The notes below the pieces were generated by a model, which searched no databases, was not told where the DNA came from, and saw only the letters and a list, made by a program, of their open reading frames with translations. The position numbers were made by a program, and so were the translations under genes. Positions 17,548 through 37,110 of a stretch of DNA of 39,167 nucleotides are shown one piece after another. The first letter of the stretch is position 1, and each line of letters starts with the position of its first letter. This DNA is from Rhodobacter sp. (GTDB taxonomy: Bacteria > Pseudomonadota > Alphaproteobacteria > Rhodobacterales > Rhodobacteraceae): assembly GCA_013821825.1 (NCBI GenBank), contig PNJK01000031.1, forward strand, positions 1 to 39,167, written 5' to 3'.

Positions 17548-17561
17548 TTGACCTGCATCAA
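17548..17561. promoter_or_regulatory. FNR/CRP-like dyad between ppsA and the divergent gene
   Basis: TTGAC-CTGC-ATCAA differs at one position from the FNR/FixK consensus TTGAT-N4-ATCAA. It lies 59 bases upstream of the ppsA start and 95 bases upstream of the divergent 17656 start, so it could serve both. For the plus-strand gene, a centre at -41.5 would place a -10 box around TAGCCT (17583-17588). Confidence 0.5.
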
Positions 17562-17655
17562 GGTGCGGAGACCGCAGGCCTGTAGCCTTTGACCAGTGGC
17601 GGTGCGGCCCGCGTTGACCCGGGCCTGCCGAAAGCGGACAGGAAAGGGATGGCAG

Positions 17656-18021
17656 ATGGAATACGAGGCAATCGAGGCGCTTGCCCGGACGGTTGAGACC
17701 GGACCGGCGGGTAATCCTGCTTGGGAGCGCGAAGTGCTGGGCGGTCTCAAATCCGTCTTTGCTGGGGTCCAGATCGACCCGGCCATGTTGACATCCACCG
17801 AGGCGGCATTCGCCTTGGCCTGCACGGTGTTTCCGGCGTGGAAGATCGAGCTGCACGGGCCGGCCACTGCGACTGCAGGCATCTGGGATTGCACGATCCG
17901 CGAAGGCGGCACCCGTGACGACGACGAGGTGATCGGCATTGGCCGGGGCGCAACTATCCCGCTTGCGCTGACCGCCGCCATGGTCCTGGCCGCAGCCCGC
18001 CGCGCCCAGGGATATGTCTGA
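17656..18021 (+). CDS. Uncharacterised 121-residue protein divergent from ppsA
   Basis: The product begins MEYEAIEALARTVETGPAGN and is probably cytosolic. The middle (TSTEAAFALACTVFPAWKIE) and the end (TIPLALTAAMVLAAARRA) recall the layout of small phage 'ABA sandwich' proteins, with a conserved aromatic Pro-Trp strand and a C-terminal Ala-rich helix, but I cannot confirm that. The start at 17656 follows AGGAAAGGG; an in-frame ATG at 17596 is further from any ribosome binding site. The gene shares an FNR-like dyad with ppsA and is followed by a good terminator, so it is likely a single-gene unit. Confidence 0.6.
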   Translation: MEYEAIEALARTVETGPAGNPAWEREVLGGLKSVFAGVQIDPAMLTSTEAAFALACTVFPAWKIELHGPATATAGIWDCTIREGGTRDDDEVIGIGRGATIPLALTAAMVLAAARRAQGYV

Positions 18022-18076
18022 ACCCGCGCTGGAGGTGACGGGCTGGCCATTCTTCCCGCACCGTTGGTGAAGCGCC

Positions 18077-18105
18077 GCGTCGCAACTGTTATCCAGTGGC
18101 GACGC
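18077..18105. terminator. Bidirectional terminator-like stem-loop
   Basis: GCGTCGC (18077-18083) pairs with GCGACGC (18099-18105), and ACTG (18085-18088) with CAGT (18094-18097), with one A/G mismatch between and a 5-base TTATC loop. It is followed by CTTTG. It lies between the convergent ends of the 17656 gene and the RND permease gene. Confidence 0.6.
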
Positions 18106-18189
18106 CTTTGTGCCTCCTGACCCAAGGGGGGGAAGGGCAAACCGCAGGCCGGGGGCATTATTTCCGGGCGGGGTGATCCTTGCAGCCGC

Positions 18190-21100
18190 TCAGGTCTTCA
18201 GAACGCGGTAGATCGCCGGGATCACCAGCACGGTCAGCAAGGTCGAGGACAGCAGCCCGAACAGCAGCGAGATCGCCAGACCCTGGAAGATCGGGTCCGA
18301 CAGGATCACCACTGCCCCGATCATCGCGGCAATCGCGGTCAGCAGGATCGGCTTGAACCGGATGGCGCCGGCCTCGAGCAGGATATCGACCGGGGTCTTG
18401 CCCGCCGGGTCGGCATTGCGGATGAAATCGACCAGCAGGATCGAGTTGCGCACGATGATCCCCGCCAGCGCGATGAAGCCGATCATCGAGGTTGCGGAGA
18501 ACGGCGCACTGAACAGCCAGTGTCCGGCCATGATGCCAAGGAAGGTCAGAGGGATCGGCGTCAGGATCACCAGAGGCAGGCGGAACGATCCGAACTGCGC
18601 CACCACGAGGATATAGATGCCAAGGAGGGCCACTGCGAAGGCTGCGCCCATGTCGCGGAAGGTGACATAGGTTACCTCCCATTCGCCGTCCCACAGAATC
18701 GTGGTGCGGCTTTCATCCTCGGGCTGGCCGTAAAGGCTGATCATGGGTTTGGTGCCGGGGGCCCAGTCCATCGCGTCCAGTGCCTGTCCGACCGCGATCA
18801 TGCCGTAAAGCGGGGCTTCGAAGCTGCCGGCCATTTCGGCGGTCACCATTTCCGCGTCGCGTCCGTTGTGGCGGAACACCGGGAACGACGCCCGTTCTTC
18901 GGCAATGCGGATCACGTCACCGAGTTCGACCACCCCGCGCGCGCCGGGCAGGACGTTTGCGGGGATCGGCGTCGAAAGGAACCGTTCGTCCAGAACCCTG
19001 TCGCCGTTGGCGCGGGCGATGCGGATCGGGATCGGCTGGCGGCCTTCCGCCCGATGCGAATAACCCACCGTCCGCCCGCCGTTCAGGATTGTCAGCGTGT
19101 CGAACACATCGCTTTCCTCGACGCTGAAGAATTCCAGATCGTCGGTGCTGATCGTGGCGCGCAGGCGGCGTGGCTGGGTGCCGAAGCTGTCGTCGACATC
19201 GACGACAAAGGGCACCGATTCAAAGGCCTCGCGCAACTTGGCCGCGGCGGCCCGCCTTGCCTCGGCGGTGGGGCCGTAGACTTCGGCCAGAAGGGTGGCG
19301 ATTACCGGCGGTCCGGGCGGCGGCTCAACGGTTTTCAGGCTGGTGCCTTCGGGCAGCGTCAGGGACCCGAGCCGGGCGCGGATATCCAGTGCAATCTCGT
19401 GGCTGGGCCGGTCGCGATCGGCCTTGGGCGAGAGGGTGATCTGCACTTCGCCCATTTGCGGCTCGCCGCGCTGGTAGTAATGCCGCACCAGCCCGTTGAA
19501 GTTGAACGGGGCGGCGGTGCCGGCATGGGTCTGAACCGCCACGACTTCGGGCAGTTGCAGGACCGTGCGGGCTACATCCTGCGCCACCCGGTCGGTCGCC
19601 TCGACCGATGCTCCTTCGGGCAGGTCGATCACCACGGAAAGCTCGGACTTGTTGTCGAAGGGCAGCAGCTTGACGGTCACATCCTTGGTGAAAAGCAGCG
19701 AAAGCGAGCCAAAGGACAAGACAGCCGTGATCAGAAGGAACGTCAGGCTGCGGGTCTTGGTGCGCAGCAGAGGCCGCGCCACCATACTGTAGGCCCGGCC
19801 TAGGAACCCGCCGGGATGGCCACCGGAGGTGCCGGCATGGGAATGCGCGGCCATTGGCGCGCGACCGGCAATCTTGACCATCAGCCAGGGCGTGATGATC
19901 ACCGCCACGAAGAAGGAAAAGATCATTGCCGCGCTGGCATTGGCGGGGATCGGACTCATGTAGGGACCCATCAGGCCCGACACGAAGAGCATCGGCAAAA
20001 GCGCGGCCACCACCGTCAGTGTCGCGACGATGGTGGGGTTGCCTACCTCGGCCACTGCCTCGACGGCGGCGGTCAGGCGGCTGCGGCTATCGCGCATCGC
20101 CCAGTGCCGGGCGATGTTCTCGATTACCACGATCGCATCATCAACCAGAATCCCGATCGAGAAGATCAGTGCGAAAAGCGATACCCGGTTCAGCGTATAG
20201 CCCATGACCCAGGCCGCGAAGAGCGTCAGCAGGATCGTGACGGGGATCACCACCGCCACCACCAGCGCCTCGCGCCAGCCAATTGCAAGCCAGACCAGCG
20301 CCACGATGGAAATGGTGGCCAGGCCCAGGTGGAACAGCAGTTCGTTGGCCTTGTCATTCGCCGTTTCGCCGTAGTCGCGGGTGATGATGACGGCGACGGT
20401 TTCCGGGATAAGGCTGCCTTCAAGCGCCTCGACCCGGCGCAGTACAGCCTCGGCCACGATCACCGCATTGGCCCCGGCGCGTTTGGCCACGGCAAGTGTG
20501 ACGGCGGGCGTGCGGGTGATGCTGCCGTCTTCGGCGCGGCTGACATTGGCAACGATCACGTCCGAGGCTTCGGACACGAAGCTGACATCTGCCACGTCGG
20601 CCACATAGACCGGCCGGGCGTCGCGCGTGGTCAGAAGCAGGTTGGCGATTTCGGCCGGGGCCACCAGCGTTTCCCCCGCCACCAGATCGATCTGTTCGCC
20701 GTCATCGCGCAGTCGTCCGGTGTTCAGCGAGCGGTTGGCATTGGCCACCTTGTCCGCCAGTTGCTGCAGGGTCACGCCGTAGAGCGCCAACCGTTCGGGG
20801 TCTGGCGCGATGCGGATCTGTTCGGGCACTTCGCCGACCAGATAGGTCAGACCGACGTCTTCGGTCTTGGCGACCTCGGTCCGCAGCTCGCGGGCGATGC
20901 GCGTCAGGTCGTTGGCGGTGATGCCTTCGACGCCCGGTTTGGGGGCGAGGGTCAGCGAAACGATCGCCACATCGTCGATGCCGCGACTGACGATCAGCGG
21001 CTGCGGGATGCCGACCGGAATCCTGTCGGAATTGGCGCTCAGCTTGTCGCGCACCCGCAGCACAGCAGCATCCGCCGAGGTACCGACCTTGAAGCGCACC

Positions 21101-21423
21101 GTGACCATTGCGTAGTCGTCGCGGGTCGAGGAGTAGACATGATCGACCCCGTCGATGCCCTTGACGATGCCTTCCAGCGGCTCGGTTACCAGCTTGACCG
21201 CGTCCTCGGCGCGCAGCCCGGGTGCCTGCAGATGGATATCCACCAGAGGAACGGAAATCTGCGGTTCCTCTTCGCGCGGCAGCGAAGTCAGGGCCACCAG
21301 CCCCATCGCCACCGCAGCAAGTATGAACAGTGGCGTCAGGGACGAGGCGATGAAGGCACGCGTCAGTCGCCCGGCAATTCCCAGATCGGGGCCCGGGCCG
21401 GGCGTTTCGGGGGCCTTATTCAT
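18190..21423 (-). CDS. RND efflux transporter permease (AcrB-like)
   Basis: This 1077-residue inner-membrane pump uses the proton gradient to expel substrates. The first membrane helix (SSLTPLFILAAVAMGLVAL) is followed by the PREEEPQISVPLVDI start of the periplasmic porter domain. The paired acidic residues of the proton relay are Asp428-Asp429 in GILVDDAIVVIENI. Further helices lie around 370-600 and 890-1075, with the symmetry-related GIIVRNSILLVDFIRNADPA near the C-terminus. It overlaps the adaptor gene by 8 bases. No outer-membrane channel gene is present nearby. Related pumps with this PREEEP start are common in sulfur-oxidising and phototrophic proteobacteria; the substrate is unknown. 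Confidence 0.93.
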   Translation of the reverse strand: MNKAPETPGPGPDLGIAGRLTRAFIASSLTPLFILAAVAMGLVALTSLPREEEPQISVPLVDIHLQAPGLRAEDAVKLVTEPLEGIVKGIDGVDHVYSSTRDDYAMVTVRFKVGTSADAAVLRVRDKLSANSDRIPVGIPQPLIVSRGIDDVAIVSLTLAPKPGVEGITANDLTRIARELRTEVAKTEDVGLTYLVGEVPEQIRIAPDPERLALYGVTLQQLADKVANANRSLNTGRLRDDGEQIDLVAGETLVAPAEIANLLLTTRDARPVYVADVADVSFVSEASDVIVANVSRAEDGSITRTPAVTLAVAKRAGANAVIVAEAVLRRVEALEGSLIPETVAVIITRDYGETANDKANELLFHLGLATISIVALVWLAIGWREALVVAVVIPVTILLTLFAAWVMGYTLNRVSLFALIFSIGILVDDAIVVIENIARHWAMRDSRSRLTAAVEAVAEVGNPTIVATLTVVAALLPMLFVSGLMGPYMSPIPANASAAMIFSFFVAVIITPWLMVKIAGRAPMAAHSHAGTSGGHPGGFLGRAYSMVARPLLRTKTRSLTFLLITAVLSFGSLSLLFTKDVTVKLLPFDNKSELSVVIDLPEGASVEATDRVAQDVARTVLQLPEVVAVQTHAGTAAPFNFNGLVRHYYQRGEPQMGEVQITLSPKADRDRPSHEIALDIRARLGSLTLPEGTSLKTVEPPPGPPVIATLLAEVYGPTAEARRAAAAKLREAFESVPFVVDVDDSFGTQPRRLRATISTDDLEFFSVEESDVFDTLTILNGGRTVGYSHRAEGRQPIPIRIARANGDRVLDERFLSTPIPANVLPGARGVVELGDVIRIAEERASFPVFRHNGRDAEMVTAEMAGSFEAPLYGMIAVGQALDAMDWAPGTKPMISLYGQPEDESRTTILWDGEWEVTYVTFRDMGAAFAVALLGIYILVVAQFGSFRLPLVILTPIPLTFLGIMAGHWLFSAPFSATSMIGFIALAGIIVRNSILLVDFIRNADPAGKTPVDILLEAGAIRFKPILLTAIAAMIGAVVILSDPIFQGLAISLLFGLLSSTLLTVLVIPAIYRVLKT

Positions 21424-22390
21424 TTCCAGTCACCACGCGGTCGCCGACGATCAGACCGGAGAGCACCTCGATCATTGGCGCACCGTCAAGCGTCTGGCGC
21501 TGCCCAAGAACGACGGCGCGCAGGATCGAACCTTCGGGGCCGGCGACCTCGACGAAATCGAGGCCGGAGCGGGTGACTACCGCCGCTTCCGGGACCATCA
21601 GCGCAGAGCGGGTCCCGATCGGCAGGCGCACCAGGACCCGGGCGTCGATAAAGCTGTCCGGCAGGTCCGGCACGTCCACATCCGCGATCACACGGCCATT
21701 CTCGATCAGCGGAAAGATCCGCGCAAGACTGCCCTGCGTTGGCCCGGCAGCGGTCTCGATCTCGATCGCGGCACCCTCCTGCAAGTTGGCGGCATGCCGT
21801 TCCGGAACCGCGATGCGCAGGAATATCCCGCCGCCGCCGATCATCGCCACCGCCTCGCCAGGCTGCACGACGGCACCAGCCGCTGCCGGCACGGCCAGCA
21901 CCCGGCCCGCGATCGGGGCGAGGACCGCCCCCTCAAGCGCCTGCTGTTCCACCACTTTTCGGTCGGCGGCGACAGCCGCGATCTGGCCGGTAAGGACATC
22001 GACCTGGGTTCGCAGGGCATCCAGCCTTTGCGCCGTCGTCACGCCGCGCGTCAGGAGGTCCTCGCCGCGGGCCAGCTCGGCCTTGGCATTGTCCAGCTGC
22101 GCAGAGAGCGCCTGCAGCTGCGCGTCGATGGCGGCAAGCTGGAAGTCGATCTTCGCATCGACCACCCGGGCCAGGACCTGCCCGGCCGTCACCATGTCAC
22201 CTTCGGAGACGTCAAGCGACACCAGTGTTCCACCCAGCCTTGCGCGGGCCGGAATGCGGCTGCGCGCCTCGATCCGGCCATAGACCGCCTTCCATTCCGT
22301 CACCGACACCGGGGCCAGGGGGACCTCCTCTGCCAGGGACGAAAGGGGGAATGCCGCCAACATGGCGACTATGGCAATCAAGGTTCGCAT
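21416..22390 (-). CDS. RND efflux periplasmic adaptor (HlyD/AcrA family)
   Basis: This 324-residue protein has a signal peptide (MRTLIAIVAMLAAFPLSSLA) and no lipobox cysteine, so it is periplasmic rather than a lipoprotein. The order is typical: a first lipoyl half (SLDVSEGDMVTAGQVLARV), an alpha-hairpin (IDAQLQALSAQLDNAKAELA to VAADRKVVEQQAL), a second lipoyl half (APIAGRVLAVPAAAGAVVQP), then beta-barrel and membrane-proximal parts (ALMVPEAAVVTRSGLDFVEV). It starts the two-gene operon with the permease, whose ATG lies inside the last codons of this gene. The Shine-Dalgarno sequence is weak (GTGGACC). Confidence 0.9.
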   Translation of the reverse strand: MRTLIAIVAMLAAFPLSSLAEEVPLAPVSVTEWKAVYGRIEARSRIPARARLGGTLVSLDVSEGDMVTAGQVLARVVDAKIDFQLAAIDAQLQALSAQLDNAKAELARGEDLLTRGVTTAQRLDALRTQVDVLTGQIAAVAADRKVVEQQALEGAVLAPIAGRVLAVPAAAGAVVQPGEAVAMIGGGGIFLRIAVPERHAANLQEGAAIEIETAAGPTQGSLARIFPLIENGRVIADVDVPDLPDSFIDARVLVRLPIGTRSALMVPEAAVVTRSGLDFVEVAGPEGSILRAVVLGQRQTLDGAPMIEVLSGLIVGDRVVTGNE

Positions 22391-22448
22391 GATCGGTCCA
22401 CTTCATGTGCTGAAAGACAGGCGTTGGCGCAGGCGGCCCGCAGAGTCG

Positions 22449-22464: not shown

Positions 22465-22467
22465 GGG

Positions 22468-22668
22468 TCAGAACGCGGTGCCGGGTTTTACGCCAAGCCA
22501 CTTGAAGGCCATGGCCGCCGGGCACCACCCGGTAAAGGCGGACTGCATCTGGTTGACACCGACAAAGACCGTCAGCCAGACGAAATAGGGCGAGACCCAG
22601 ACGGTCAGCGCCACCGACAAAAGCACCATGAAGCCTGCGAAGGCCATGACGATACGATCAAGTGACAT
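22468..22668 (-). CDS. DUF2892 (YgaP-like) membrane protein
   Basis: This 66-residue protein has two membrane helices (IVMAFAGFMVLLSVALTVWV and YFVWLTVFVGVNQMQSAFTG) and ends in the signature GWCPAAMAFKWLGVKPGTAF, including the conserved Cys-Pro. DUF2892 proteins occur alone or fused to rhodanese domains, usually next to sulfur-handling genes. Here it lies 79 bases downstream of sqr on the same strand, which fits a role in sulfide or sulfane-sulfur metabolism. AAAGGAG before the ATG is a strong ribosome binding site. Confidence 0.9.
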   Translation of the reverse strand: MSLDRIVMAFAGFMVLLSVALTVWVSPYFVWLTVFVGVNQMQSAFTGWCPAAMAFKWLGVKPGTAF

Positions 22669-22747: not shown

Positions 22748-24034
22748 TCAAGTATCTAGCTTGATTTCCTTCAGTTTTTCGATCCCCAGCGCCTGCAACG
22801 CCAACCGCTCGTAGAAGGGCTCGGATTTGCCGCTCCGGATCTTGTAGAGGAAGTATTTCTCAAAGGCTATCTTGGCCAGATGGACCCATTTGCCCGAAGA
22901 CGACCAGTTCACGTTGCGCGGTGGAATCTGCGGCTGCGCGATGAAGGCGATGCCGCTGTCGCCGAAATCGGCAAGACAGACGGCGTTCCAGGTGGCCACG
23001 GCGTCGGGTGCCAGCCCATGGATCAGCCGGTCGATGTTCTGCACGGTGGCGGTGACCATGGATTCGATCATGAAGCCGGTCTTCGGCACCCCCACCGGAA
23101 GCGGCGTCTTGCCGACGGGCGGGATAGCCACGCAGACGCCCACGGCAAACACCTCTGGGAAGGCTGGATTGCGCTGGTGCTTGTCGGCAAGGATGAAGCC
23201 GCGCGGATTGGTCAGCCCTTCGATGCCGCGTACCGCTTCGATGCCGCGAAAGGCGGGAAGCATCATGGTAAAGACCTGCGGCACTTCATGCGAGGTCAGC
23301 ACCGAGCCGTCCTCGGCGATCTCGGAAACCAGAAGCTTGTCCTTCTCCACCTTGTCGAGTCGGGCGTTGCAGATCCACTTGATGTGATGCTGGCGCATTT
23401 CGCCTTCCAGCAGGCCCTTGGTGTTGCCCACCCCGTCCAGCCCGAGATGCCCGATATAGGGTTCGGAGGTGACAAAGGTCATCGGCACCCGGTCGCGCAC
23501 TTTCGCGTCGCGCAGCGCCTTGTCGAGGATGAAGGCGAATTCATAGGCCGGGCCGAAGCATGAAGCCCCCTGCACCGCCCCGATCACCACCGGGCCGGGC
23601 TTTGCGATCAAGGCATCCACCGCCTGCTTGGCTTGCAGCGCATGATCGACATGGCAGATGGACTGGGTGTGCGCCCCGGGGCCAAAGCCCTCGATCTCGT
23701 CAAAGGCAAGATCGGGGCCAGTGGCGATTACAAGATAGTCGTAGCTGACCGATCCGCCGTCGTTCAGTTCGATCCGGCGGTCGGCCGGGTGCAGGCGTTT
23801 TGCGCCCTGTGGATGCAGCGTGATGCGGCGTTTGGCAAAGACAGCCGCAAGATCGACCTCGATCGCCGCACGGTCGCGCCAGCCCACGCCAACCCATGGG
23901 TTCGAAGGCACGAAATGGAAGTGGCTGCCGTTGGAGATCACCGAAACGGAATGATCCGCTGCAAGCTTTTCACGCAGTTCATAGGCCGCGATCGTGCCGC
24001 CAAGGCCAGCGCCGAGTACCACGACATGCGCCAT
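22748..24034 (-). CDS. sqr: Sulfide:quinone oxidoreductase
   Basis: SQR oxidises sulfide to sulfane sulfur and passes electrons to quinone at the membrane surface. The 428-residue protein has an FAD motif GAGLGG (8-13) and a second flavin motif in ATGPD. The redox cysteines are Cys127 (SICHVDH), Cys159 (GASCFGP) and Cys353. His131, His196 and Val300 also match residues studied in the Rhodobacter capsulatus enzyme, in the same numbering. The C-terminal FEKYFLYKIRSGKSEPFYER is the amphipathic membrane-binding region. The start at 24034 follows GAGGGAG; in-frame ATGs at 24049 and 24124 are less likely. A perfect FNR-type site lies upstream. Confidence 0.93.
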   Translation of the reverse strand: MAHVVVLGAGLGGTIAAYELREKLAADHSVSVISNGSHFHFVPSNPWVGVGWRDRAAIEVDLAAVFAKRRITLHPQGAKRLHPADRRIELNDGGSVSYDYLVIATGPDLAFDEIEGFGPGAHTQSICHVDHALQAKQAVDALIAKPGPVVIGAVQGASCFGPAYEFAFILDKALRDAKVRDRVPMTFVTSEPYIGHLGLDGVGNTKGLLEGEMRQHHIKWICNARLDKVEKDKLLVSEIAEDGSVLTSHEVPQVFTMMLPAFRGIEAVRGIEGLTNPRGFILADKHQRNPAFPEVFAVGVCVAIPPVGKTPLPVGVPKTGFMIESMVTATVQNIDRLIHGLAPDAVATWNAVCLADFGDSGIAFIAQPQIPPRNVNWSSSGKWVHLAKIAFEKYFLYKIRSGKSEPFYERLALQALGIEKLKEIKLDT

Positions 24035-24114
24035 CCGGGTCTCCCTCATATTGTCCAAGCAGGGGCTACCAGAACCGGAAGGCTGACACCGCACCGCTGC
24101 CGCAGATCGCTGGA

Positions 24115-24130: not shown

Positions 24131-24166
24131 CGGTGCGGGCGTTGATGTGGATCAACGCCCGCACCG
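24131..24166. promoter_or_regulatory. 36-base perfect palindrome with an FNR box at its centre, upstream of sqr
   Basis: The 16-base arms 24131-24146 and 24151-24166 are perfect reverse complements around GTGG. The centre (24142-24155) is TTGAT-GTGG-ATCAA, the exact FNR/FnrL/FixK consensus. It lies 108 bases upstream of the sqr start and also upstream of the CBS-domain remnant on the other strand, so it may once have served both directions. The long GC-rich arms could also form a cruciform or RNA hairpin. The following bases 24167-24324 hold no gene I can support. Confidence 0.75.
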
Positions 24167-24324: not shown

Positions 24325-24456
24325 TTTTTGGATAGATTCGGAAAGGGCGTTCGCGATTGTGACGAGCTTTCCGGCGACTGCTGCGATGACAACCTTGTGT
24401 GGTTTTCCGGCGGCACGAAGACGATCAGCGAAGACCTTCAAGACCGGGTTGTGATG
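24325..24456 (-). mobile_element. IS110-family transposase fragment
   Basis: On the minus strand about 43 residues, NPVLKVFADRLRAAGKPHKV followed by VIAAVAGKLVTIANAL, match the C-terminal end of IS110/IS1111-type transposases (typical pattern: NPVLKAFYxRLxAxGKPxKVALxAxxRKLLxxLNA). The fragment ends abruptly where the CBS-domain remnant begins on the other strand. The rest of the transposase and both element ends are missing, so it is an inactive relic that probably removed the N-terminus of the CBS gene. Confidence 0.65.
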
Positions 24457-24804
24457 GTTGGCGACGAGGGCCGCCTTGTCGACGTGCTGTCCAAGAAGGA
24501 CTGCCTGCGCGCCGCGTTGCACGGCGCGTATTATTAGGAAAGGGGCGGTCAGGCTGCCGCCCTCATGACCAGGGCTGTGGCAACGCCTGGCGTCGATCTT
24601 GACCTTGTCGGCGCGGCGGAACGCTTCCTTGCCAGTCAATACCGCCGGTTCCCGGTACCGCTTGACGGAAAGCTGGTCGGCCAGATCAGTCACACTGACG
24701 TCTTGCGGGCGCTGATCGAGAACTGTTCGGCTTGGGGCAATGTCCGGGCAGGGGGCACTCGTGATGGCCAACAGGCCCCAAGCCAACGGATTTCGGCATC
24801 GTAA
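24446..24804 (+). pseudogene. CBS-domain protein pseudogene with an internal stop
   Basis: The frame reads VMVGDEGRLVDVLSKKDCLR-AALHGAYY, then TAG at 24535-24537. In the same frame it continues ERGGQAAALMTRAVATPGVD, AAERFLASQYRRFPV, and DGKLVGQISHTDVLRALIE. These are the end of a first CBS motif and most of a second, as in two-CBS-domain proteins that sense adenine nucleotides. The first about 40 residues are missing where the IS110 fragment abuts. Truncation plus an amber codon means no complete product. An intact gene would have been near the FNR-type palindrome at 24131-24166. Confidence 0.7.
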
Positions 24805-25434
24805 TTCGGCAGCCGATTGAAGAACGCCCCTGCCTGACAAAGCGGATCAGGCCACTTCGGGTCAGCTGGCACCAGACCCGTGTCGCGGTGCCTGTGCCCA
24901 AGGTTCATCTGCCTTGCTGCTCGCCTTGCGATCAAAGGAGCGGCAGCAGACCACGACAGGCCCATGTTACGGAAGCCGGGGGATGAGTCCGTCCGGGAAA
25001 GAGCGAGGCCTGAGGTCAAGCCATAATTGCTGCAGGGCCGTGCTGCCGCTGCAGATCAGCCAGGGAAAGTGTCGTCGGGTCGCGAGGGCATTGCGCATAC
25101 CCCTGCGCGATTTGCGGATGTGACGACAGCCTCGGCTGACAGCCCGGAGGCGGCCCGTTGGGCGACAAGGCTGCGTTCCGGAATGCAATGCCGGGTGAAG
25201 AGCAGGTCATCAAGACGCAAGAGGCCTTTGTCGCTCTGGCAGCCGATCTTGCCTTCTGGTTGAAGATACCCGTCAGCTTTGGACGCTTCGACCTTCCGAC
25301 CCTGGCCGTCCGCGCGATCACTTGCAGCGAAGATGTGCAGCTGAACCGGGCGCTTGCGGGCGATATCTGCATCGGCGCGGCTCCTTTGGCGGGCTGCCCG
25401 GGAATACCGGTCGGCGGAACCGCAGGCTCAAACG

Positions 25435-25448
25435 TTGACGGTCGTCAA
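25435..25448. promoter_or_regulatory. TTGAC-N4-GTCAA dyad upstream of the sugar ABC operon
   Basis: TTGAC-GGTC-GTCAA is a perfect 5-base dyad with the 4-base spacer of FNR/CRP-type sites, although both half-sites differ from the FNR consensus by one base. It lies 152 bases upstream of the binding-protein start. It could belong to this operon or to the decayed gene before it. Confidence 0.4.
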
Positions 25449-25599: not shown

Positions 25600-26853
25600 A
25601 TGATCGAGTTTCGGAGACTGACCGCCGTTGCCGCGCTGCTGGGCAGCGTCTACGCAAGCGGCGCCTTTGCCCAGGGCACCGTGGAAGTGTTGCACTGGTG
25701 GACCTCGGGCGGCGAGGCCAAGGCCGTGGGCGAGTTGAAAAGCGCGTTCGAGGCGTTGGGCGGCACCTGGATCGATTCTCCGATTGCCGGTGGCGGCGGC
25801 GACGCAGCGATGACCGCGCTGCGGGCGCGCGTCGTGGCCGGCAATCCGCCGACGGCCGTGCAGCTGAAAGGCCCCGGCATCCAGGAATGGGCGCGCGAAG
25901 GCAGCCTGAACGATGTGCAGGCCGTGGCAACGGCCGAGAACTGGGACAGCGTCCTGCCGCCGGTTCTGGCCGAGATCATGAAGTACGACGGCAAATACGT
26001 TGCCGCGCCAGTAAACATCCACCGCGTGGACTGGATCTGGGCCAGCCCCATAGCGCTGGAGAAAGCCGGCATCACCGAGATGCCGACCACATGGGCGGAG
26101 TTCAACGCCGCCGCCGAGAAGCTGGAGGCGGCCGGGCTGGTGGCGCTGGCTCATGGCGGCCAGCCCTGGCAGGACGCCACCGTCTTTGAGGATGTGGTGC
26201 TGGGTGTCGGCGGCCCTGACTTCTACCGCAAGGCGCTGGTCGAGCTTGACCCAGAGGCGCTGACCTCGGAAACGATGGTCGCCGCGTTCGATCAGCTGCG
26301 CATCCTGCGCGGTTTCGTCGATGACGGCTTTTCCGGGCGTGACTGGAATCTGGCCACCGCCATGGTGATCCGGGGCGAGGCGGGCTTTCAGATCATGGGC
26401 GACTGGGCCAAGGGCGAATTCCTTGCCGCCGGTCTGGTGCCGGGCAAGGACTTCTACTGCATTCCCACCCCCGGCGACGGCTTCGTGCTGAACTCGGACA
26501 GCTTCACCTTCTTCAAGGTCGCGGGGGAGGAGAACCTGAAGGGCCAGCAAGTGCTGGCCAGCCTGATCATGTCGCCCGCGTTCCAGAAGACCTTCAACCT
26601 TGCCAAGGGGTCGATCCCGGCGCGGACCGACGTGCCGCTGGATGACTTCGACGATTGCGCCAAGCGGTCGCAGGCGGACCTCCTGAAGGCGACCGCGGCG
26701 GGTGCGCTGCTGCCGTCGATGGCGCATGAGATGGCCATTCCACGCTCGGTCAGGGGCGAGATCCTCGACGTGGTGACCACGTTCTTCAACTCCGACATGC
26801 CCTCGAAAGACGCGACGACCGCACTGGCCGAAGCGATCCAGCGGGCGATGTGA
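25600..26853 (+). CDS. Sugar ABC transporter substrate-binding protein
   Basis: This 417-residue periplasmic protein begins with a Sec signal peptide (MIEFRRLTAVAALLGSVYAS, cleavage after AFA near residue 24). The mature start VEVLHWWTSGGEAKAVGELK is typical of glucose/mannose-type binding proteins (cluster B, GtsA/GlcS-like). Other matches are AQLKGPGIQEWA-like VQLKGPGIQEWAREG, PVNIHRVDWIWASPIALEKA, and FQIMGDWAKGEF. GGGAGAGA precedes the ATG. It heads an operon with two permeases and an ATPase. Glucose or another hexose is the likeliest substrate, judging from family resemblance only. Confidence 0.9.
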   Translation: MIEFRRLTAVAALLGSVYASGAFAQGTVEVLHWWTSGGEAKAVGELKSAFEALGGTWIDSPIAGGGGDAAMTALRARVVAGNPPTAVQLKGPGIQEWAREGSLNDVQAVATAENWDSVLPPVLAEIMKYDGKYVAAPVNIHRVDWIWASPIALEKAGITEMPTTWAEFNAAAEKLEAAGLVALAHGGQPWQDATVFEDVVLGVGGPDFYRKALVELDPEALTSETMVAAFDQLRILRGFVDDGFSGRDWNLATAMVIRGEAGFQIMGDWAKGEFLAAGLVPGKDFYCIPTPGDGFVLNSDSFTFFKVAGEENLKGQQVLASLIMSPAFQKTFNLAKGSIPARTDVPLDDFDDCAKRSQADLLKATAAGALLPSMAHEMAIPRSVRGEILDVVTTFFNSDMPSKDATTALAEAIQRAM

Positions 26854-26915
26854 CGGCCATGCCCCGGGGCCGTCCACCGGCCCCGGGGCGCGCGCGACGG
26901 GCGGGGGAAGCCGGC

Positions 26916-28678: not shown

Positions 28679-28681
28679 GGC

Positions 28682-29788
28682 ATGGCCGGGATCACGCTCA
28701 AAGGGGTGCGCAAGAACTTCGGGGCGACCGAGGTGATAAAGGGCATCGACCTTCAGATCGAGCCGGGCGAGTTCGTCGTGCTTGTCGGTCCCTCGGGCTG
28801 CGGCAAGTCCACGCTTCTGAACCTGATCGCGGGGCTGGAGACGCTGAGCGCGGGCGACATCCTGATCGGGGATCGCCGCGTCAACGACGTGCCGCCGCGC
28901 GACCGCGACATCGCGATGGTCTTCCAGTCCTACGCGCTTTATCCGACCAAGACCGTGCGCGACAACATCACCTTCGGGATGGAAACGCGCCGGGTGCCGC
29001 AGGCGGCGCAGGCGGCGGCGCTGGCGGAATTCGCGGGGCTTCTGCAGATCGGCCACCTCCTTCACCGCAAGCCCGGCCAGCTTTCGGGCGGGCAGCGCCA
29101 GCGGGTGGCGATGGGCCGCGCGCTGGTCCGCAAGCCCGAGGTCTTCCTCTTCGACGAGCCGCTGTCGAACCTTGACGCCAAGCTGCGCATCGAGATGCGG
29201 ACCGAGATCAAGAAACTGCACCAGCGCCTTGGCAAGACCGTGGTCTATGTCACCCACGACCAGATCGAGGCGATGACGCTCGCCTCCCGCATCGCCGTGA
29301 TGGACGAGGGCCATATCCGCCAGCTTGCCGACCCCGCGACCGTTTACGAAGACCCCACCGATCTTTTCGTCGCGGGCTTCATGGGGTCGCCCCCGATGAA
29401 CATGCTTCCCGGGAGACTGGTTCGCGACGGCGGAATGGCGGTCCTCTGCGGCGAAGGTGCTTCGCAGCTTCGCTTCCCGCTGCCCGAGCGCACAGCCGAC
29501 CGGATGGCCGGATCCGACGGTCGCGCCGTTATTCTTGGCCTCCGCCCCGAGACGATCTTCGCCGCCGGCACGCAACTTCCGGGCCCGGACCGCTTTGTGT
29601 TCGAGCGACCCGTTGTCGTGGAAGAGCCGACCGGCCCTGACACCATGATCGTCTTCGAAATCGGCGGGCAGGACCTGATCGCCCGCGTCCGCCCGCAGGA
29701 CGCGCGCCCGGGTGGTACTGTCTTTCATTTTGAAGTCGAGATGGACCGCGCCAAGCTGTTCGATGCCAAGACCGGCGTCAGGCTCTGA
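28682..29788 (+). CDS. Sugar ABC transporter ATP-binding protein (UgpC/MalK type)
   Basis: This 368-residue ATPase energises the sugar importer. Walker A is GPSGCGKST (36-44), the Q-loop is [15 protein letters not shown], the signature is LSGGQ (134-138), Walker B is VFLFDEP (154-160) and the switch histidine is in [14 protein letters not shown]. The regulatory C-terminal OB-fold/TOBE domain has [11 protein letters not shown] and ends with FDAKTGVRL, typical of the UgpC/MalK group. It closes the four-gene operon. No sugar-catabolic gene follows, so the downstream pathway must be elsewhere. Confidence 0.93.
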
Positions 29789-30977: not shown

Positions 30978-31992
30978 TCACGGGACGATTGGCGGCTGGG
31001 GAAGGGCGATGAAGAATGCGGTGCCCTGCCGCTCGACCTCGATCAGAACCGGATCGTCCGGAGGGGCCGCGACGACGGCGTCGTGGAACTGGTCGATCCG
31101 GTTGACGGGGGTGTTGCCGACGGCAGTGACGCGGTCGCCGACCATCAGGCCCGCGCGGGAGGCACCGCTCACCGGTGCGACGGCCGCGACAGCCAGGCCG
31201 CGTTGAGCTTCAGTCAGCGACATAGCCTGCAGGCGCTGCGGTTGTTCGGCCTCGTCGCTGCCGAGGCGTTGCTGTCTCATCGTCTGGTCCGCTGCTCCCG
31301 CAACCGCCTCCACCGACATCCGCATGCCGTCGCGCATGGTATCCAGCGTGGCCTTCTGCTCTGGCGTCCGCAGGCCGATCAGCCAGCGCCGGGCCGCCGC
31401 ATTGGTGACCGCCTCTTCATCCAGCGCAACAATCACGTCGCGCGGACGCAAGCCCGCCGCTTCAGCAGCGCCCCCCTGCATGATCTGCGCAATCAGCGCG
31501 CCGCCCGAGTTTCCGGGGTTGATCGGGGCATCGGTCCGGATGAAGTTCTCATATCCTTCGATCCCCAGGCCCCGGCGGCCAAGGGCGCTGGCACTATCCA
31601 GCGTGACCGTCTGCTCCGGCCCGAACGGGTTGCCGATCGCCATGACATAATCGCCAACCCGCAGTGAGGACGATTGTCCGATGGGCATCTCAGCCAACCC
31701 CTCAGATGCGGTGCGGTGCGATGCGATGCGCGGCAATGTCGTTTCACCCCGCCGCCAGGAATTCCGGCGGCGGCTGAACCTGGGGAAGTTCTGTCGGGGT
31801 TGCAGGCTCGCTTTCAGGCGGGGGGGCCGAGGGGAATTCAGGCGGGTTGCCAGGGGGTGCCTCGGCAGGGGCTTCGCCGGGCGCTTCGGCAGGGCTATTG
31901 CCCGGCACCTCATCCGGGGGGAGCCCCATCGCTACTATCGCAAGAGGCAGTGACGACCAACGCAACGTTGTTGGGGTGAGGGTGTGGCGCAT
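30978..31992 (-). pseudogene. DegP/HtrA-like serine protease pseudogene
   Basis: From ATG 31992 the frame reads a signal peptide-like start (MRHTLTPTTLRWSSLPLAIV) and a Pro/Glu-rich linker, then stops at 31744. In another frame the protease resumes with [46 protein letters not shown], and the active-site serine motif GNSGGAL. It then jumps straight into PDZ sequence ([20 protein letters not shown]) and a second PDZ ([20 protein letters not shown]). The region holding the catalytic His and Asp is missing, and so is the piece between the serine motif and the first PDZ. With at least two deletions and a frame change it cannot be an active protease. Confidence 0.8.
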
Positions 31993-32051: not shown

Positions 32052-32065
32052 TTGACCGCCATCAC
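32052..32065. promoter_or_regulatory. FNR-like dyad between degP-like and pcm-like remnants
   Basis: TTGAC-CGCC-ATCAC differs from TTGAT-N4-ATCAA at two positions. It lies 55 bases before the pcm GTG and 60 bases before the protease ATG on the opposite strand, the distance expected for an activator site serving two divergent genes. Confidence 0.4.
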
Positions 32066-32119: not shown

Positions 32120-33869
32120 GTGGAAGACCCCACAAGACAGCGTTGGGGGATGGTGAGCCGACAGATTGCGGCACGGGGGGTGCGAAATGAGAAAGTCCTG
32201 TCAGCGATGCGTCTGATCCCTCGCCATGAATTCCTGCCCACGTATCTGCGCGCCAGCGCCCAGGCAGACCAGCCAGTTCCGATTGCCGAGGGACTGACAC
32301 TGATCCAACCCCATGTTGTGGCCTGCATGATCGAGGCCCTGGGCCTGAAGGGCGGTGAAAGGGTGCTCGAGATCGGAGCGGGCACGGGATATGTCGCGGC
32401 CGTTCTGTCCATGATCGCGGGTCAGGTGTTCATCATCGAACGGGTCGGCCAACATGCCGAAAGGGCCGCCGCCACTTTGATGGACATAGGATGCCGGAAT
32501 TTTCAGCTGCGCCACGACGACGGCACCCAAGGGTGGATCGAAAAGGCGCCGTTTGACGCGATTCTGGTATCGGGAGGCGCGCCTTTCCTGCCGGAAGTGC
32601 TGAAGAACCAGCTTGCCCCCGGTGGCCGCATGGTGGTGACCGGGGGACTGGACCCCCGGGCACAGGAGCTTGTTCGGGTCACGCGCCAGGAAAAGGGGCA
32701 GTTCTTGCAGGAAGATCTGGCCGATCTGCGGTTCGTGCCGCTGATCGGTTATCAGGGGCGGGAGGGTGTGCCGCCCGCACCCGACATCGGAAGGACGCAG
32801 CCGCTGCCTGCCTCCGCAATGACGCCTGACAGCCTGCCCGACCTGATAGCGCGCAGCCGAGGATTTCCAAAGCGCCGAGACCGCCGATCTGGCACCGCTG
32901 CTGGGCCGCATCGGCGACCGCCGTGTCGTGCTGATTGGCGAGGCGAGTCACGGTCGCGGCCGAGTTCTACCGCTTTCGCGCCCGCCTGACCCAGCGTCTG
33001 ATCAAGGAAAAGGGCTTTACCATCGTCGCAGTCGAGGCTGACTGGCCCGATGCCGCCCGGATCGGCCGCTACCGAGGCTGCGCCGGGGATGTCACGCAAG
33101 TTCTGGTCGATCTGCGCCGCAAGCGGCTGGAGCAGGTCCGCAAGGATGGGGACCGTCTGCTCGATGCCCAGCAGAATGCCTGTCTCGTGACCAATGCCGA
33201 GCGCTATTACCGCGTGATCTATTACGGCTTGCGCGCATCAGGGAACCTTCGCGACGGGCACATGTACGAGACGCTTCAAAACGTCATGCAGCATAATGGC
33301 CCGAAGGCCAAAGCCATGGTCTGGGCGCATAATTCGCACATCGGCGATGCCCGCGCGACCGAGATTTCCCGGCGTGGCAAGTGCAATCTTGGCGAGAAGT
33401 GCGCACGCGGCTTGGGGGAGCAATCCGATCGCAACGGCTTTGGCACCGACCATGGCGCCGTGGCTGACGCCACCGACAGTGGGGCGGCGCGATGGAGGTC
33501 AAGACCGTACGCCCTTCGCACTGCCAAAGCCACGAGCGGCGGTTCCATCTGACCGGCTTGCCGGGTTTGATCCTGCCGATGCGCCCCGGTCATGGGGTTG
33601 AGGTGGTGACAGAACTGTCCACGCCCCGGCTGGAACGCGCCATTGGCGTGATCTACCGCCCCGAATCCGAGCTTGCGAGCCATTGCTTCGAGGCAGAGTT
33701 GCCGCGACAGTTCGATGAATATGTATGGATCGAGAAGACAAGCGCAGTCACGCCGCTGCCGGCCCGGCAGACCGAGGGGCTGCCCGCCACCTTTCCCTTC
33801 GGTGTCGGACGGGGCGCGTCGACCCCCGCTTGGGACGCTCATCACGTGGATTTCCCGGCCAAAGAGTGA
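32120..33869 (+). pseudogene. pcm: Broken fusion gene: protein-L-isoaspartate O-methyltransferase plus erythromycin-esterase-like domain
   Basis: The first part (to about 32858) is an almost complete PIMT, which repairs isoaspartyl residues using S-adenosylmethionine: VLEIGAGTGYVAAVLS (from 82) is the cofactor site. The conserved Ser of the SQP motif is replaced (LIQPHVV). The frame then shifts and an erythromycin-esterase-like domain begins in frame 3 (DLAPLLGRIGDRRVVLIGEA-SHG). It moves to frame 1 (AEFYRFRARLTQRLIKEKGF, VAVEADWPDAARIGRY), loses an internal block before RLLDAQQNACL, keeps AMVWAHNSHIGDARATEI, and shifts again to frame 3 (MEVKTVRPSH, LERAIGVIYRPESELASHCF, RQFDEYVWIEKTSAVTPLPA). 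The PIMT part alone might still be made from GTG 32120. Confidence 0.8.
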
Positions 33870-34465: not shown

Positions 34466-34588
34466 CCCGGGTCCAACCTTTGTGTCGAGATTTTCATGAT
34501 GCTCTCATTGCGGAGGCCCTGGTGAAGAAGGCGGCTTCCAACCTTGTCAGGCATTGTTCGCTTCTGTGCCCAGTGCAGGGCGATTTCA

Positions 34589-34602
34589 TTGATCGCAGTC
34601 AA
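34589..34602. promoter_or_regulatory. FNR-like dyad upstream of ybhB
   Basis: TTGAT-CGCA-GTCAA has one mismatch to the FNR/FixK consensus. It lies 124 bases upstream of the YbhB-family start and 89 bases upstream of the alcohol dehydrogenase remnant. The gap 34466-34690 holds no gene I can support. Confidence 0.5.
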
Positions 34603-34626
34603 GGATGTCGTCCTTGCGCCCGGAAA

Positions 34627-34640
34627 TTGACGACGATCAT
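34627..34640. promoter_or_regulatory. FNR-like dyad upstream of the alcohol dehydrogenase remnant
   Basis: TTGAC-GACG-ATCAT has two mismatches to TTGAT-N4-ATCAA. It ends 51 bases before the ATG at 34691, nearly the same distance as the site before the pcm-like remnant. Confidence 0.4.
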
Positions 34641-34690
34641 TGTCGTGAAGGTGGCGCGTGCGCTGGCTTGCCTCCGGAATGGACGCTGCA

Positions 34691-35166
34691 ATGAAAGCCA
34701 TGATCCTTGACGCCGTCGGGGGGGGGCCGGTTCTGCGCGATCTGCCGATCCCGGTTCCCGGTCCGGGACCGGTGCGCTTGCGCGTCGAGGTCTGCGGGAG
34801 CTGTCCATATTGCTCGCACGGGGCAGAAAACCTGTGCGATGCGCCGCAGTTCACCGGCTATGACCCGCGACGGCGGATTTGCCGAATATTGCGTGGCGGA
34901 TGCGGTTTATGTCTTCCCGCTGCCTTAAACGGCCGACCCGGTCGCTCTGGCGCCCCTGCTTTGTGCCGGGCTGATCGGCTACCGTGCGCTGCGGATGGCG
35001 GGGCCGGCCAAAAGGCTGGGCATCTGAGGCTTTGGTGCGGCAGCCCACACCCTGTGCCAGATCGCCGTCTGGCAAGGCCGCGCTGATCTTTGCGCCGGTC
35101 GCCAATGCGGCGCTGGATGCCCTTGGTGCCGGGCAACTGCAGGGCGCGGCCGTCTTGGTGCCCTGA
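34691..35166 (+). pseudogene. Zinc-dependent alcohol dehydrogenase pseudogene
   Basis: The ATG at 34691 opens MKAMILDAVGGGPVLRDLPI and reaches RVEVCG. It then jumps over the catalytic-zinc and substrate region to SCPYCSHGAENLCDAPQFTG, part of the structural-zinc loop. After a frame change it reads TRDGGFAEYCVADAVYVFPL, then meets TAA (34926-34928), then PVALAPLLCAGLIGYRALRM, a second in-frame TGA, and GFGAAAHTLCQIAVWQGR, which overlaps the cofactor loop. After a further shift the natural C-terminus appears (NAALDALGAGQLQGAAVLVP, stop 35166). An intact enzyme has about 330-350 residues. Two deletions, frameshifts and stops exclude function. Confidence 0.8.
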
Positions 35167-35235
35167 CTGGAACCGCTCCCTTGTGGCGTTGCGATCCTGC
35201 CGACGACTGGGCGGACAAGTGTCACCGCGCATGTT

Positions 35236-36339
35236 TCAACCGTCGTGACGGATTGCCCCGTCCGCCGTCAGCCGCAGGTCAAGACCGACGGACTGCTGCG
35301 CGAGGGTCTGCGCCAGCCACGCGGCGTCTTCCCGATCAGCTTTTTGCAGGCGGAACCGTCGCCGCTTGAATGGCACCAGTTCAAGCTTTCGAACCGGCCC
35401 GCGATGCCGGTCGAGGTCCAGGAAAATCGCAAGGCCAAGGTCAGGACGAAACACCTCATGCCCCTCGATCCCCTCGTAGTCGTTGATCAGGTCGCCGCAA
35501 CCATAGAAGACGATGCCGCCGTCCGCGATCTCGATGGCCTTGGGATGGTGGGATGAGTGGCCGAAGACCATGTTCACCCCGGCCTCATCAATCAGCGCAT
35601 GGGCAAGTCTGCGTTGCCAGACCGGAACGTCATGACCCCAGTTGCCGCCCCAATGCAGCGACACGATGAGGATATCGCCCGGCCGCCGCAGCCGGGCAAC
35701 CGCGCGTTGCACCGCCGCCACGGGATCGGAGGGCAGAAGATTGACACCCGGCTGCGCTTGCCCTGCTGCCCAATCAGGCGGAACACCGCTGTCGAAGGTG
35801 CAAAAGGCCAGCAGAAGCACCCGCCCTCCGCCCCGCACCGGCAGCACGGCCACGGCCCCGGCGGCCTGAGCATCCCGCCCGGCTCCGGCGCAAGCGATGC
35901 CCGCCCGGTCCAGCGTGTCGAGGGTTTCCGTCACCCCCGCATCGCCCCAATCCTTCACATGGTTGTTCGCCAGAGCGCAGGCATCTATCCGTGCCGCCGT
36001 CAGCACGCTGATATTGGCCGGGTTCATCCGATAGTTGATGCCCTTGGGCGCGGGCTTGTTGGCGGTTGTGATCGCCGTTTCAAGGTTGACTATGCGCAAA
36101 TCGCAGCCGTGCCGGTCCAGATCGGTCAGAAGATCACCCCAGATGTAGTCATCCTTCACTCCGCGCGGGATAGGGCCCGATCGCCCTTCCGCCAGACCCA
36201 CATAATCCGCAGCCGAAGTTGCCCAGGCTTCTTGAAGTTGAGGGTCACCGGGATGGCGCAGGATCTGGTCTATCCCGCGACCGGTCATCACGTCCCCTGC
36301 AAGGAACAGGCGGATGGCGTTGTCCTTACCGGCGGCCAT
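35236..36339 (-). CDS. CapA family protein (PgsA-like metallophosphoesterase fold)
   Basis: This 367-residue protein matches the CapA/poly-gamma-glutamate-synthesis PgsA domain. Metal-site motifs are LFLAGDVMTGRGID (Asp16), VNLETAI (Asn85-Leu-Glu-Thr), LANNHVKDWGDAG (Asn125-Asn126-His127), VSLHWGGNWGH and VFGHSSHHPKAIE. The fold is that of calcineurin-type phosphoesterases. Some relatives take part in capsule synthesis, but most stand-alone members have no proven role. There is no signal peptide, so it is probably cytosolic. The gene overlaps the end of the hydrolase gene by 14 bases, and the two form an operon. Confidence 0.88.
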   Translation of the reverse strand: MAAGKDNAIRLFLAGDVMTGRGIDQILRHPGDPQLQEAWATSAADYVGLAEGRSGPIPRGVKDDYIWGDLLTDLDRHGCDLRIVNLETAITTANKPAPKGINYRMNPANISVLTAARIDACALANNHVKDWGDAGVTETLDTLDRAGIACAGAGRDAQAAGAVAVLPVRGGGRVLLLAFCTFDSGVPPDWAAGQAQPGVNLLPSDPVAAVQRAVARLRRPGDILIVSLHWGGNWGHDVPVWQRRLAHALIDEAGVNMVFGHSSHHPKAIEIADGGIVFYGCGDLINDYEGIEGHEVFRPDLGLAIFLDLDRHRGPVRKLELVPFKRRRFRLQKADREDAAWLAQTLAQQSVGLDLRLTADGAIRHDG

Positions 36340-37009
36340 GATCGGAAGGCCCCTTCAGATGCTGCGTGAACCAGCTTTGCGCCAAAGCCACAACCTGATC
36401 GAGGGTCCCCGCTTCCTCGAACAGATGGGAGGCGCCGGGCACGATCTGCAGCGCCTTCGTGCAGGTCAGCGCAGCGAGGGCTTCACGGTTGAGATCAATC
36501 ACCTGATGATCCTCGCCGCCGACGACAAGCAGCGTGGCTGCACGGACCTGCGCCAGAGCCGCACCCGCCAGATCCGGCCTTCCGCCGCGCGACACCACGG
36601 CGCGGGTAGCATCGGGCATCCGCGCAGCCGCAACCAGCGCGGCGGCGGCACCGGTGCTGGCGCCAAACAGGCCGATGGGCAAACCGGCCAGTCCGGGTTG
36701 GCGGTCGATCCAGCGCAGGGCGGCGCAAACGCGGCCTGCCAGCAGAGGGATGTCGAATATGTTGGCGCGATCGGCGGCTTCTTCGGGCGTCAGAAGGTCG
36801 AAAAGCAACGTCACAAGGCCCGCCGAGCGCAGTGCCCCGGCGACCTGGCGATTGCGCGGACTGTTCCGGCTGCTGCCGCTGCCATGCGCGAAAACCACTG
36901 CGCCGAAAGGATGGGCTGGAGTTCCAAGATCACCGGGCAGGACCGGTCCGGGCGCAGGACCCGCTTCGATCTGCACCGGCACGGTCGTTGTCGGCCCGGG
37001 TGTTGTCAT
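36326..37009 (-). CDS. Dienelactone-hydrolase-like alpha/beta hydrolase
   Basis: This 227-residue cytosolic hydrolase shows the oxyanion-hole and conserved loop AHGSGSSRNSPRN (41-53). The nucleophile elbow GASTG has Ser118, the acid is Asp167 in GGEDHQVI and the base is His195 in GASHLF, so the catalytic triad is complete. Members of this subgroup often sit next to phosphoribosyltransferase, PIMT/erythromycin-esterase and universal-stress genes, which matches this region. Natural substrates are unknown. The ATG at 37009 follows GAGG; the in-frame ATG at 37051 lacks such a signal. An FNR-like dyad lies 88 bases upstream. Confidence 0.87.
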   Translation of the reverse strand: MTTPGPTTTVPVQIEAGPAPGPVLPGDLGTPAHPFGAVVFAHGSGSSRNSPRNRQVAGALRSAGLVTLLFDLLTPEEAADRANIFDIPLLAGRVCAALRWIDRQPGLAGLPIGLFGASTGAAAALVAAARMPDATRAVVSRGGRPDLAGAALAQVRAATLLVVGGEDHQVIDLNREALAALTCTKALQIVPGASHLFEEAGTLDQVVALAQSWFTQHLKGPSDHGRR

Positions 37010-37096
37010 GACTGAACCTCGGCACAGCGTGGGGCACGGTGGATAGCCCACGGCAGAAAGGTGAAGGGACAGTGCCCGTTTTCACGCCAAAGCACA

Positions 37097-37110
37097 TTGT
37101 CGCGCGTCAA
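37097..37110. promoter_or_regulatory. FNR-like dyad between the hydrolase and the UspA remnant
   Basis: TTGTC-GCGC-GTCAA (reverse strand TTGAC-GCGC-GACAA) keeps the TTG-N8-CAA frame and 4-base spacer but has three mismatches to the consensus. It lies 88 bases upstream of the hydrolase start and 139 bases upstream of the UspA remnant. It is the weakest of the set. Confidence 0.3.

Follow-up and report, generated by a model that had tools for sequence, protein, structure and literature searches.

The window analysed here, the whole of contig PNJK01000031.1 (contig C31; 39,167 b) in the 4.0-Mb, 234-contig genome assembly of Rhodobacter sp. (GCA_013821825.1), carries seven short inverted repeats (dyads) related to TTGAN6TCAA, the motif of FNR/FixK-type regulators, in gaps next to genes for phosphoenolpyruvate (PEP) synthase, a sulfide quinone oxidoreductase-like enzyme (sqr), a small uncharacterised protein and several intact or decayed genes. 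With genes called by a purpose-made codon-usage caller rather than a standard program, the part of the window that bears most directly on these dyads contains the following features.

15093-17489, minus strand: ppsA, PEP synthase, intact (Pfam PPDK_N, PEP-utilizers, PEP-utilizers_C)
17548-17561: FNR/FixK-type dyad TTGACCTGCATCAA, between the divergent ppsA and 121-residue gene (matrix score 20.8)
17656-18021, plus strand: 121-residue gene of an uncharacterised family (gene call)
18190-22390, minus strand: HlyD-type adaptor and AcrB-type RND pump, downstream of sqr (Pfam ACR_tran, HlyD_D23)
22748-24049, minus strand: sqr-like FAD/NAD oxidoreductase (Pyr_redox_2, gene call)
24142-24155: FNR/FixK-type dyad TTGATGTGGATCAA, upstream of sqr (matrix score 21.8)

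A sequence-only reading of the window had proposed the seven dyads as the mark of a redox stress regulon, and all of them were recovered where it had placed them, outside the called genes. It had described them uniformly as TTGAN-N4-NTCAN, which fits the other sites but not the one at 37097, which starts with TTGT and is thus one base off. The perfect form TTGAN6TCAA occurs four times in the window against 0.27 expected, a count reached in none of 100 shuffles, and against about 0.5 predicted from the rate in the genome (P = 0.0018). The looser form TTGAN6TCA gives 15 strand matches against 2.76 expected, representing 11 distinct places; the six that are non-coding are all among the seven dyads and the other five (11259, 12950, 15742, 22761 and 36489) are coding, a distribution with P = 0.0095 given that non-coding DNA makes up 7,521 of the 39,167 b. 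Of the 12 orders in which the half-site letters can stand, TTGA yields four occurrences and the other 11 none or one each, and among spacers of 2 to 14 bp the 6-bp spacer gives four and all others none or one. The same spacer ranks first in the loci of sqr relatives (71 against at most 23) and in 20 regions of relatives chosen around the genes adh, pcm or hydrolase (24 against at most 8). A scoring matrix was built only from 25 ppsA sites in 24 other genomes, with two ppsA relatives that lack a near dyad left out and the sites of the window unused. Its eight top positions in the window are the seven dyads and a coding position, 12950, which ranks fourth with a score of 17.0; at a score of 10 it finds 11 matches in the window and one in its reversed copy.

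Comparison of the ppsA loci provides the clearest footprint. Full-length relatives of ppsA are present in 26 cases among 148 other genomes of the family (three partial or weak matches, L132-L134, are left out of the counts), and they are preceded by a perfect dyad in 15 and by a dyad with at most one mismatch in 24, located at -58 to -110 as measured from the position that aligns with residue 1 of the window's protein rather than from the start of each gene. In random windows of the same loci, taken from coding DNA only, the corresponding frequencies are 0/1,040 and 105/1,040. The dyad of the window itself is identical over 14 bases to a putative FnrL site, which passages of a regulon study (PMC2908626) place in a chromatin immunoprecipitation-microarray peak at Rhodobacter sphaeroides dksA. 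The preservation of the site at similar distances bears out the proposed place of ppsA in the regulon, and very strongly argues for its being a predicted member of an FNR/FixK-type regulon.

The gap between ppsA and the 121-residue gene is the only divergent gap in the window that is flanked by two intact genes. The 121-residue protein has no Pfam match at E<=1, and when 14 members of its family were compared with Pfam, PHROGs and NCBIfam only single members were matched, the best with an E-value of 0.0013; no PDB sequence matched the family with an E-value below 0.87. A single-sequence structure model of the protein attains a mean predicted local distance difference test score (pLDDT) of 59.9, and the invariant residues of the family include P60, W62, G68, G75, W77, C79 and R82. 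The phyletic pattern is limited: the gene is found in 13 of the 148 other family genomes and in three of 18 further alphaproteobacterial genomes searched, and was not found in any of the five Bradyrhizobium genomes searched. In eight of the 13 it is divergent from ppsA; the gaps between the matches span 140-322 bp, and six of the eight contain a perfect dyad and two a dyad with one mismatch. Tabrizicola rongguiensis also has the divergent arrangement with a dyad between the two genes. The other five comprise a convergent gene beside ppsA, a convergent gene 5.7 kb away, a gene on a different contig and two genomes without a full-length ppsA. Where the two genes are not paired head to head, three genomes (L290 in G084, L292 in G147 and L330 in Defluviimonas WL0050) have a perfect dyad before the small gene, and no dyad precedes it at L289, L297, L298 and L332 (Defluviimonas WL0075, a partial match).

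In a plasmid collection 13 records match this family, of which 12 are from Leisingera, and three were inspected. On both Leisingera plasmids among them (L299, L300) a phosphofructokinase gene lies between the small-gene homologue and ppsA, and a hydrolase gene adjoins the homologue. Upstream of ppsA there is a perfect dyad, at 59 bp in one and 126 bp in the other, and the hydrolase-small gene pair is preceded by a dyad with one mismatch; one of the two also has a zinc alcohol dehydrogenase and DnaJ nearby. The stretch inspected of the third, a Tropicibacter plasmid record, holds neither ppsA nor a perfect dyad. The Leisingera module further includes an acetate-CoA ligase and a pyruvate-dehydrogenase-like operon, and one of the plasmids is typed as mobilizable. 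Its divergence from ppsA in eight of 13 genomes and the dyads kept in three genomes elsewhere make the 121-residue gene, which had been put forward as a new regulon member, a good candidate for one. In many genera it is transcribed away from ppsA with a single FNR-type dyad between the two, it is kept in a module with ppsA on the Leisingera plasmids, and it retains the dyad outside the divergent position. On these grounds we tentatively suggest, with appreciably less than even confidence, that it represents a new Rhodobacterales family that might act with PEP synthase at low oxygen and might modulate it. What is new in the finding is this small gene family.

The second well-conserved site lies upstream of sqr, which is probably the first gene of an sqr-HlyD-RND operon. 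Among 80 relatives of sqr the fetched stretch contains a HlyD match in 49 and an RND match in 50. Between sqr and HlyD, at 22468-22647, the caller places a further gene of 59 residues, which looks membrane-like by eye and may belong to the same operon. The dyad counts refer to 79 of these 80 loci, one (L073) being without upstream sequence. A perfect dyad is found within 300 bp upstream in 18/79, and in seven of the first 11 relatives in search order (L025-L035, 89-74% identity) such a perfect dyad lies at -63 to -119. A matrix score of at least 15 within 250 bp is attained at 24/79 sqr loci as against 11 of 1,441 random windows. In 13 loci HlyD lies divergently upstream of sqr, and in eight of these a dyad is situated between the two, its distance to the edge of the HlyD match being 71-158 bp; all eight are from Bradyrhizobium or Bradyrhizobiaceae. 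The closest sqr, 89% identical, is that of Rhizobiales bacterium IMCC20636 (L025), which has the same 14-base dyad; the 21-kb stretch retrieved there shows neither a HlyD nor an RND match. The gene was possibly shared with this lineage through horizontal transfer. The retention of the dyad at similar distances in part of the relatives upholds the proposed inclusion of sqr and lends strong support to its predicted membership in an FNR/FixK-type regulon.

In the genome as a whole TTGAN6TCAA occurs 52 times as against 22 for the reversed control. Of these, 49 were examined (two were not listed and one was not fetched) within 412,051 b made up of the window, 35 stretches around dyads and five 20-kb stretches picked without reference to dyads, none of which contained one. 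Intergenic DNA makes up 58,071 b (14%) of this sample and holds 37 of the 49 dyads, so that the comparison of intergenic with coding hits favours the proposed regulon. The bias is concentrated in the FNR-like form TTGAY-N4-RTCAA, with 33/38 intergenic, against 4/11 for other TTGAN6TCAA dyads (P = 0.002); of two reversed control dyads neither is intergenic. It is very improbable that the whole pattern arose by chance in a high-GC genome. A good match in coding DNA, at 12950, would be in keeping with chance, but the excess of dyads, the specificity for half-site and spacer, the intergenic bias and the conservation at ppsA and sqr all speak against it, and for these two genes the footprints in relatives refute it.

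The genes next to the genomic dyads, with names read by eye from their translations, include ccoN with a universal stress protein (Usp) and fnrL with hemN (L245); a DNR-like regulator, a Usp and nitrate-respiration genes (L246); and 5-aminolevulinate synthase (L260), CcmE-like (L271) and DksA-like (L273) genes. They also include a LacI-like (L263) and a GntR-like (L261) regulator, which to our knowledge are not among known targets. A second dyad-rich stress cluster, at C16:14500-30000 (L255), has two CRP/FNR regulators of its own and, by eye, cyclopropane-synthase-like, BON, CBS, Hsp20-like and kinase-like genes. The R. sphaeroides FnrL targets given in parts of PMC2908626 include cbb3 oxidase, a hemN-type oxidase, hemA, Usp and dksA.

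The remaining five dyads of the window lie among genes many of which are decayed; the remnants were identified by comparing the genes of related regions with the window.

24454-24738, plus strand: decayed CBS-domain gene (Pfam CBS on the open piece 24538-24804)
25167-25397, plus strand: kinase-like remnant, named by eye (49% over 77 aa to an intact gene of the C16 cluster)
25435-25448: dyad TTGACGGTCGTCAA, 152 bp before the sugar ABC operon (matrix score 15.5)
25600-29788, plus strand: sugar ABC transporter (binding protein, two permeases, ATPase)
30978-31913, minus strand: degP-like protease, broken
32052-32065: imperfect dyad TTGACCGCCATCAC, between the broken degP and the broken pcm-esterase gene (matrix score 11.6)
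32120-33869, plus strand: pcm (PIMT)-erythromycin-esterase-like fusion, in pieces and in more than one frame
34589-34602: dyad TTGATCGCAGTCAA, upstream of decayed adh (matrix score 18.7)
34627-34640: second dyad TTGACGACGATCAT, upstream of decayed adh (matrix score 15.3)
34691-35105, plus strand: adh, decayed zinc alcohol dehydrogenase of TIGR02822 type (internal stops, partial profile match)
36326-37009, minus strand: dienelactone-hydrolase-like gene, intact, followed by a PGA_cap gene (35236-36339)
37097-37110: imperfect dyad TTGTCGCGCGTCAA, between the hydrolase and decayed usp (matrix score 12.6)
37249-37422, plus strand: universal stress protein (usp) gene, decayed, with only about 57 N-terminal residues left

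The gaps that hold the dyads are mostly divergent, as had been noted, although the number is five of six, with decayed genes counted, and not four; the gap at 25435 is not divergent because the kinase-like remnant lies upstream on the same strand. The extent of decay varies. The CBS remnant aligns at 53% identity with residues 41-132 of a protein of 132 aa that adjoins the 121-residue homologue in genome G084, and the degP-like gene, compared with a 470-aa relative, leaves residues 1-147 and 227-297 unmatched at E<=1e-4. In four of five pcm relatives the pcm-esterase fusion forms an uninterrupted frame of 657-671 aa. Matches to adh cover 34787-35105, its first part (34691-34786) being read by eye. 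A transposase (DDE_Tnp_1) at 38497-39167 adjoins the decayed genes and runs off the end of the contig; on the Leisingera plasmid L300 an IS5-family relative with 55% identity is found close to the same module.

In relatives, one 30-kb stretch of G084 encodes a Usp-like protein, a zinc alcohol dehydrogenase, the esterase-like fusion, and Hsp20-like, DegP, ppsA, small-gene and CBS proteins (the last five named by reading), and contains six perfect dyads and no control match. The 20 relative regions together contain 24 dyads, likewise with no control match. A strong dyad lies within 300 bp before adh in two of six relatives above the family cut-off (among 100 genomes), and in a third (G049) a dyad precedes a cytochrome c gene upstream of adh. 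Because strong dyads precede adh in these relatives, the dyads at 34589 and 34627 most likely served adh. The gene ybhB on the other side of this gap had been proposed as a new member, a suggestion that we reject, since a dyad with at most two mismatches is found within 300 bp in none of the nine relatives scored (L303-L311; 12 were matched and the three weakest were not scored). The hydrolase has a strong dyad just upstream in one of four relatives, and another precedes a fused form in G084; its absence from the sqr loci and the 20 relative regions is uninformative, as the query was in a slipped frame there. Dyads in relatives thus speak for adh and the hydrolase as proposed members, but they are found in a minority, and we regard the membership of both as moderately supported.

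A search of the genome with the HTH_Crp_2 profile gave 20 matches, 11 of them over the cut-off, and by reading six are CRP/FNR-type proteins, five of which have an ExxSR recognition helix. One, the FnrL-like protein L005 (C1:158882-159115), combines N-terminal cysteines, CSECPIRHRAVCARC, with the helix LGLTLETVSR, which is identical to that in the FixK2 structure 4i2o and close to that of solved FNR. The N-terminal cysteines of FNR proteins hold an Fe-S cluster, and those of L005 would by analogy do the same. A dyad 97 bp before the called fnrL start is, by count, 16 bp upstream of the ATG from which the protein would take in the cysteines. FNR, FixK and DNR have a common motif according to passages of PMC2908626, and with six CRP/FNR-type proteins in the genome the motif does not single out FnrL. 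The core of the proposed FnrL/FixK low-oxygen regulon stands; its specific attribution to FnrL does not follow from the motif. That the regulator is another CRP/FNR protein, for instance one of the pair in the C16 cluster (L007, L009) or the DNR-like L008 by the nitrate genes, is rather unlikely in our view. The shared ExxSR helix and motif, and the dyads and similar gene set of the C16 cluster itself, are consistent with it. For L007, close relatives (>125 bits, >=38% identity) occur in nine of the 148 other family genomes, and as only four of these nine have ppsA, a close relative is missing in 22 of the 26 ppsA genomes; a dedicated module regulator of L007 type thus gains no support from co-occurrence with ppsA. 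Matches to the L007 query at E<=1e-20 are present in 25 of these 26, though also in 128/149 genomes overall, and the weaker ones read as FnrL.

Much of the predicted target set is already in print. In the part of the Bradyrhizobium diazoefficiens FixK2 table considered here (PMC9104804), ppsA has a box, TTGACCTGCCTCAA, of the form TTGA/C-N6-T/GCAA at -47 and lower expression in the fixK2 mutant, and units with FixK2 boxes that are likewise lower in the mutant include Usp, CBS, Hsp20 and an RND adaptor. Rows of an expression table in a second study of this organism (PMC6515984), taken without their column headings, contain ppsA, a PIMT, and CBS and Usp proteins. That system differs in that its activator, FixK2, is fed by FixLJ, whereas the candidate here is FnrL-like with N-terminal cysteines; the 121-residue family, moreover, was not found in the five Bradyrhizobium genomes, although that strain was not among them. 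The alphaproteobacterial core regulons (Dufour et al. 2010, PMC2908626) share the motif, and the available part of their Table 1 lists cbb3 oxidase, hemN-type oxidase, UspA and a DnaK suppressor protein for FNR, and CBS, zinc alcohol dehydrogenase, Hsp20, HlyD and a kinase for FixK. It differs in listing no PEP synthase or SQR in that part, and unnamed hypothetical proteins in it may overlap with the 121-residue family. Passages on FnrL of Dinoroseobacter shibae, R. sphaeroides and Rhodobacter capsulatus (PMC5398030, PMC4263372, PMC4634722) agree in Usp and oxidase targets and differ in naming no ppsA, sqr or small-gene target; in D. shibae one dyad likewise serves divergent genes, there nirS and nosR2 (PMC5398030). 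In a search that mostly did not extend to subscription literature, no paper was found that links FnrL with PEP synthase or sulfide quinone oxidoreductase, or FixK with sulfide quinone. The target set, with ppsA, Usp, CBS, Hsp20 and zinc alcohol dehydrogenase in these sources, is therefore less new than first thought, and the window adds a new example of a regulon type that is already known.

Taken as a whole, the window is best explained as FNR/FixK-type operators placed before a partly decayed microoxic stress module, an interpretation that we consider highly probable. We infer that the dyads at 17548 and 24142 would be operators bound by an activator of FNR/FixK type, for which the FnrL-like protein encoded in the genome, a predicted oxygen sensor, is the most likely candidate. 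At low oxygen this activator would turn on ppsA and the 121-residue gene divergent from it, together with sqr and the RND pump. The dyads at 34589/34627 and 37097 would be operators of the same kind that remain before module genes, namely adh and the hydrolase/usp pair, which have since decayed in whole or in part. With operators standing before decayed genes of the same module, the window would represent a degenerating copy of an alphaproteobacterial microoxic stress island.

Several observations weigh against this interpretation. The perfect dyad within 300 bp is absent in 61/79 sqr relatives, and its identity over 14 bases in L025 may reflect recent descent; four of six adh orthologues have no dyad within 300 bp, and ten of the 20 relative regions, including the 20-kb regions around all five pcm relatives, contain no perfect dyad. 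The five ExxSR-bearing proteins among the six CRP/FNR-type ones could share the motif. In the literature, a term search of the main texts of three FnrL papers, supplements aside, found no ppsA/pyruvate-synthase or sulfide-oxidoreductase target, and the R. capsulatus paper states that FnrL takes no direct part in the control of glycolysis in the two Rhodobacter species (PMC4634722). The lesser sites are also poorly conserved. At degP/pcm the best score, 9.2, is attained in one of the five pcm relatives (46-62% identity), which gives pcm no support as a member and leaves the site a weak one. The site before the sugar ABC operon is a non-coding dyad as described, but perfect dyads occur in one of the 14 relatives examined, the closest (43 other genomes match), and one-mismatch dyads in two more, so that membership is likewise weak. 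It is a serious possibility, though somewhat short of an even one, that some of 25435, 32052 and 37097 are chance occurrences or respond to a different regulator. The site before the sugar ABC operon might serve a sugar repressor that recognises a similar palindrome: it lies 152 bp from the gene, and the 81%-identical orthologue, which keeps the half-sites upstream, shares with it CGTTGAC and GTCAATGC, a match that extends beyond the FNR half-sites. Against this, the three sites rank fifth, eighth and seventh by matrix in the window, and all are non-coding.

If the interpretation as FNR/FixK-type operators before a decaying microoxic module is accepted, the predicted FNR-type operator at ppsA is kept in most family members that have the gene, extending beyond the published Bradyrhizobium case, and that at sqr is kept in a sizeable part of its relatives. 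Operators would appear to outlive the genes they served, such that motif-based regulon predictions partly point at pseudogenes. Finally, an uncharacterised small protein family would be tied to PEP synthase and low oxygen.

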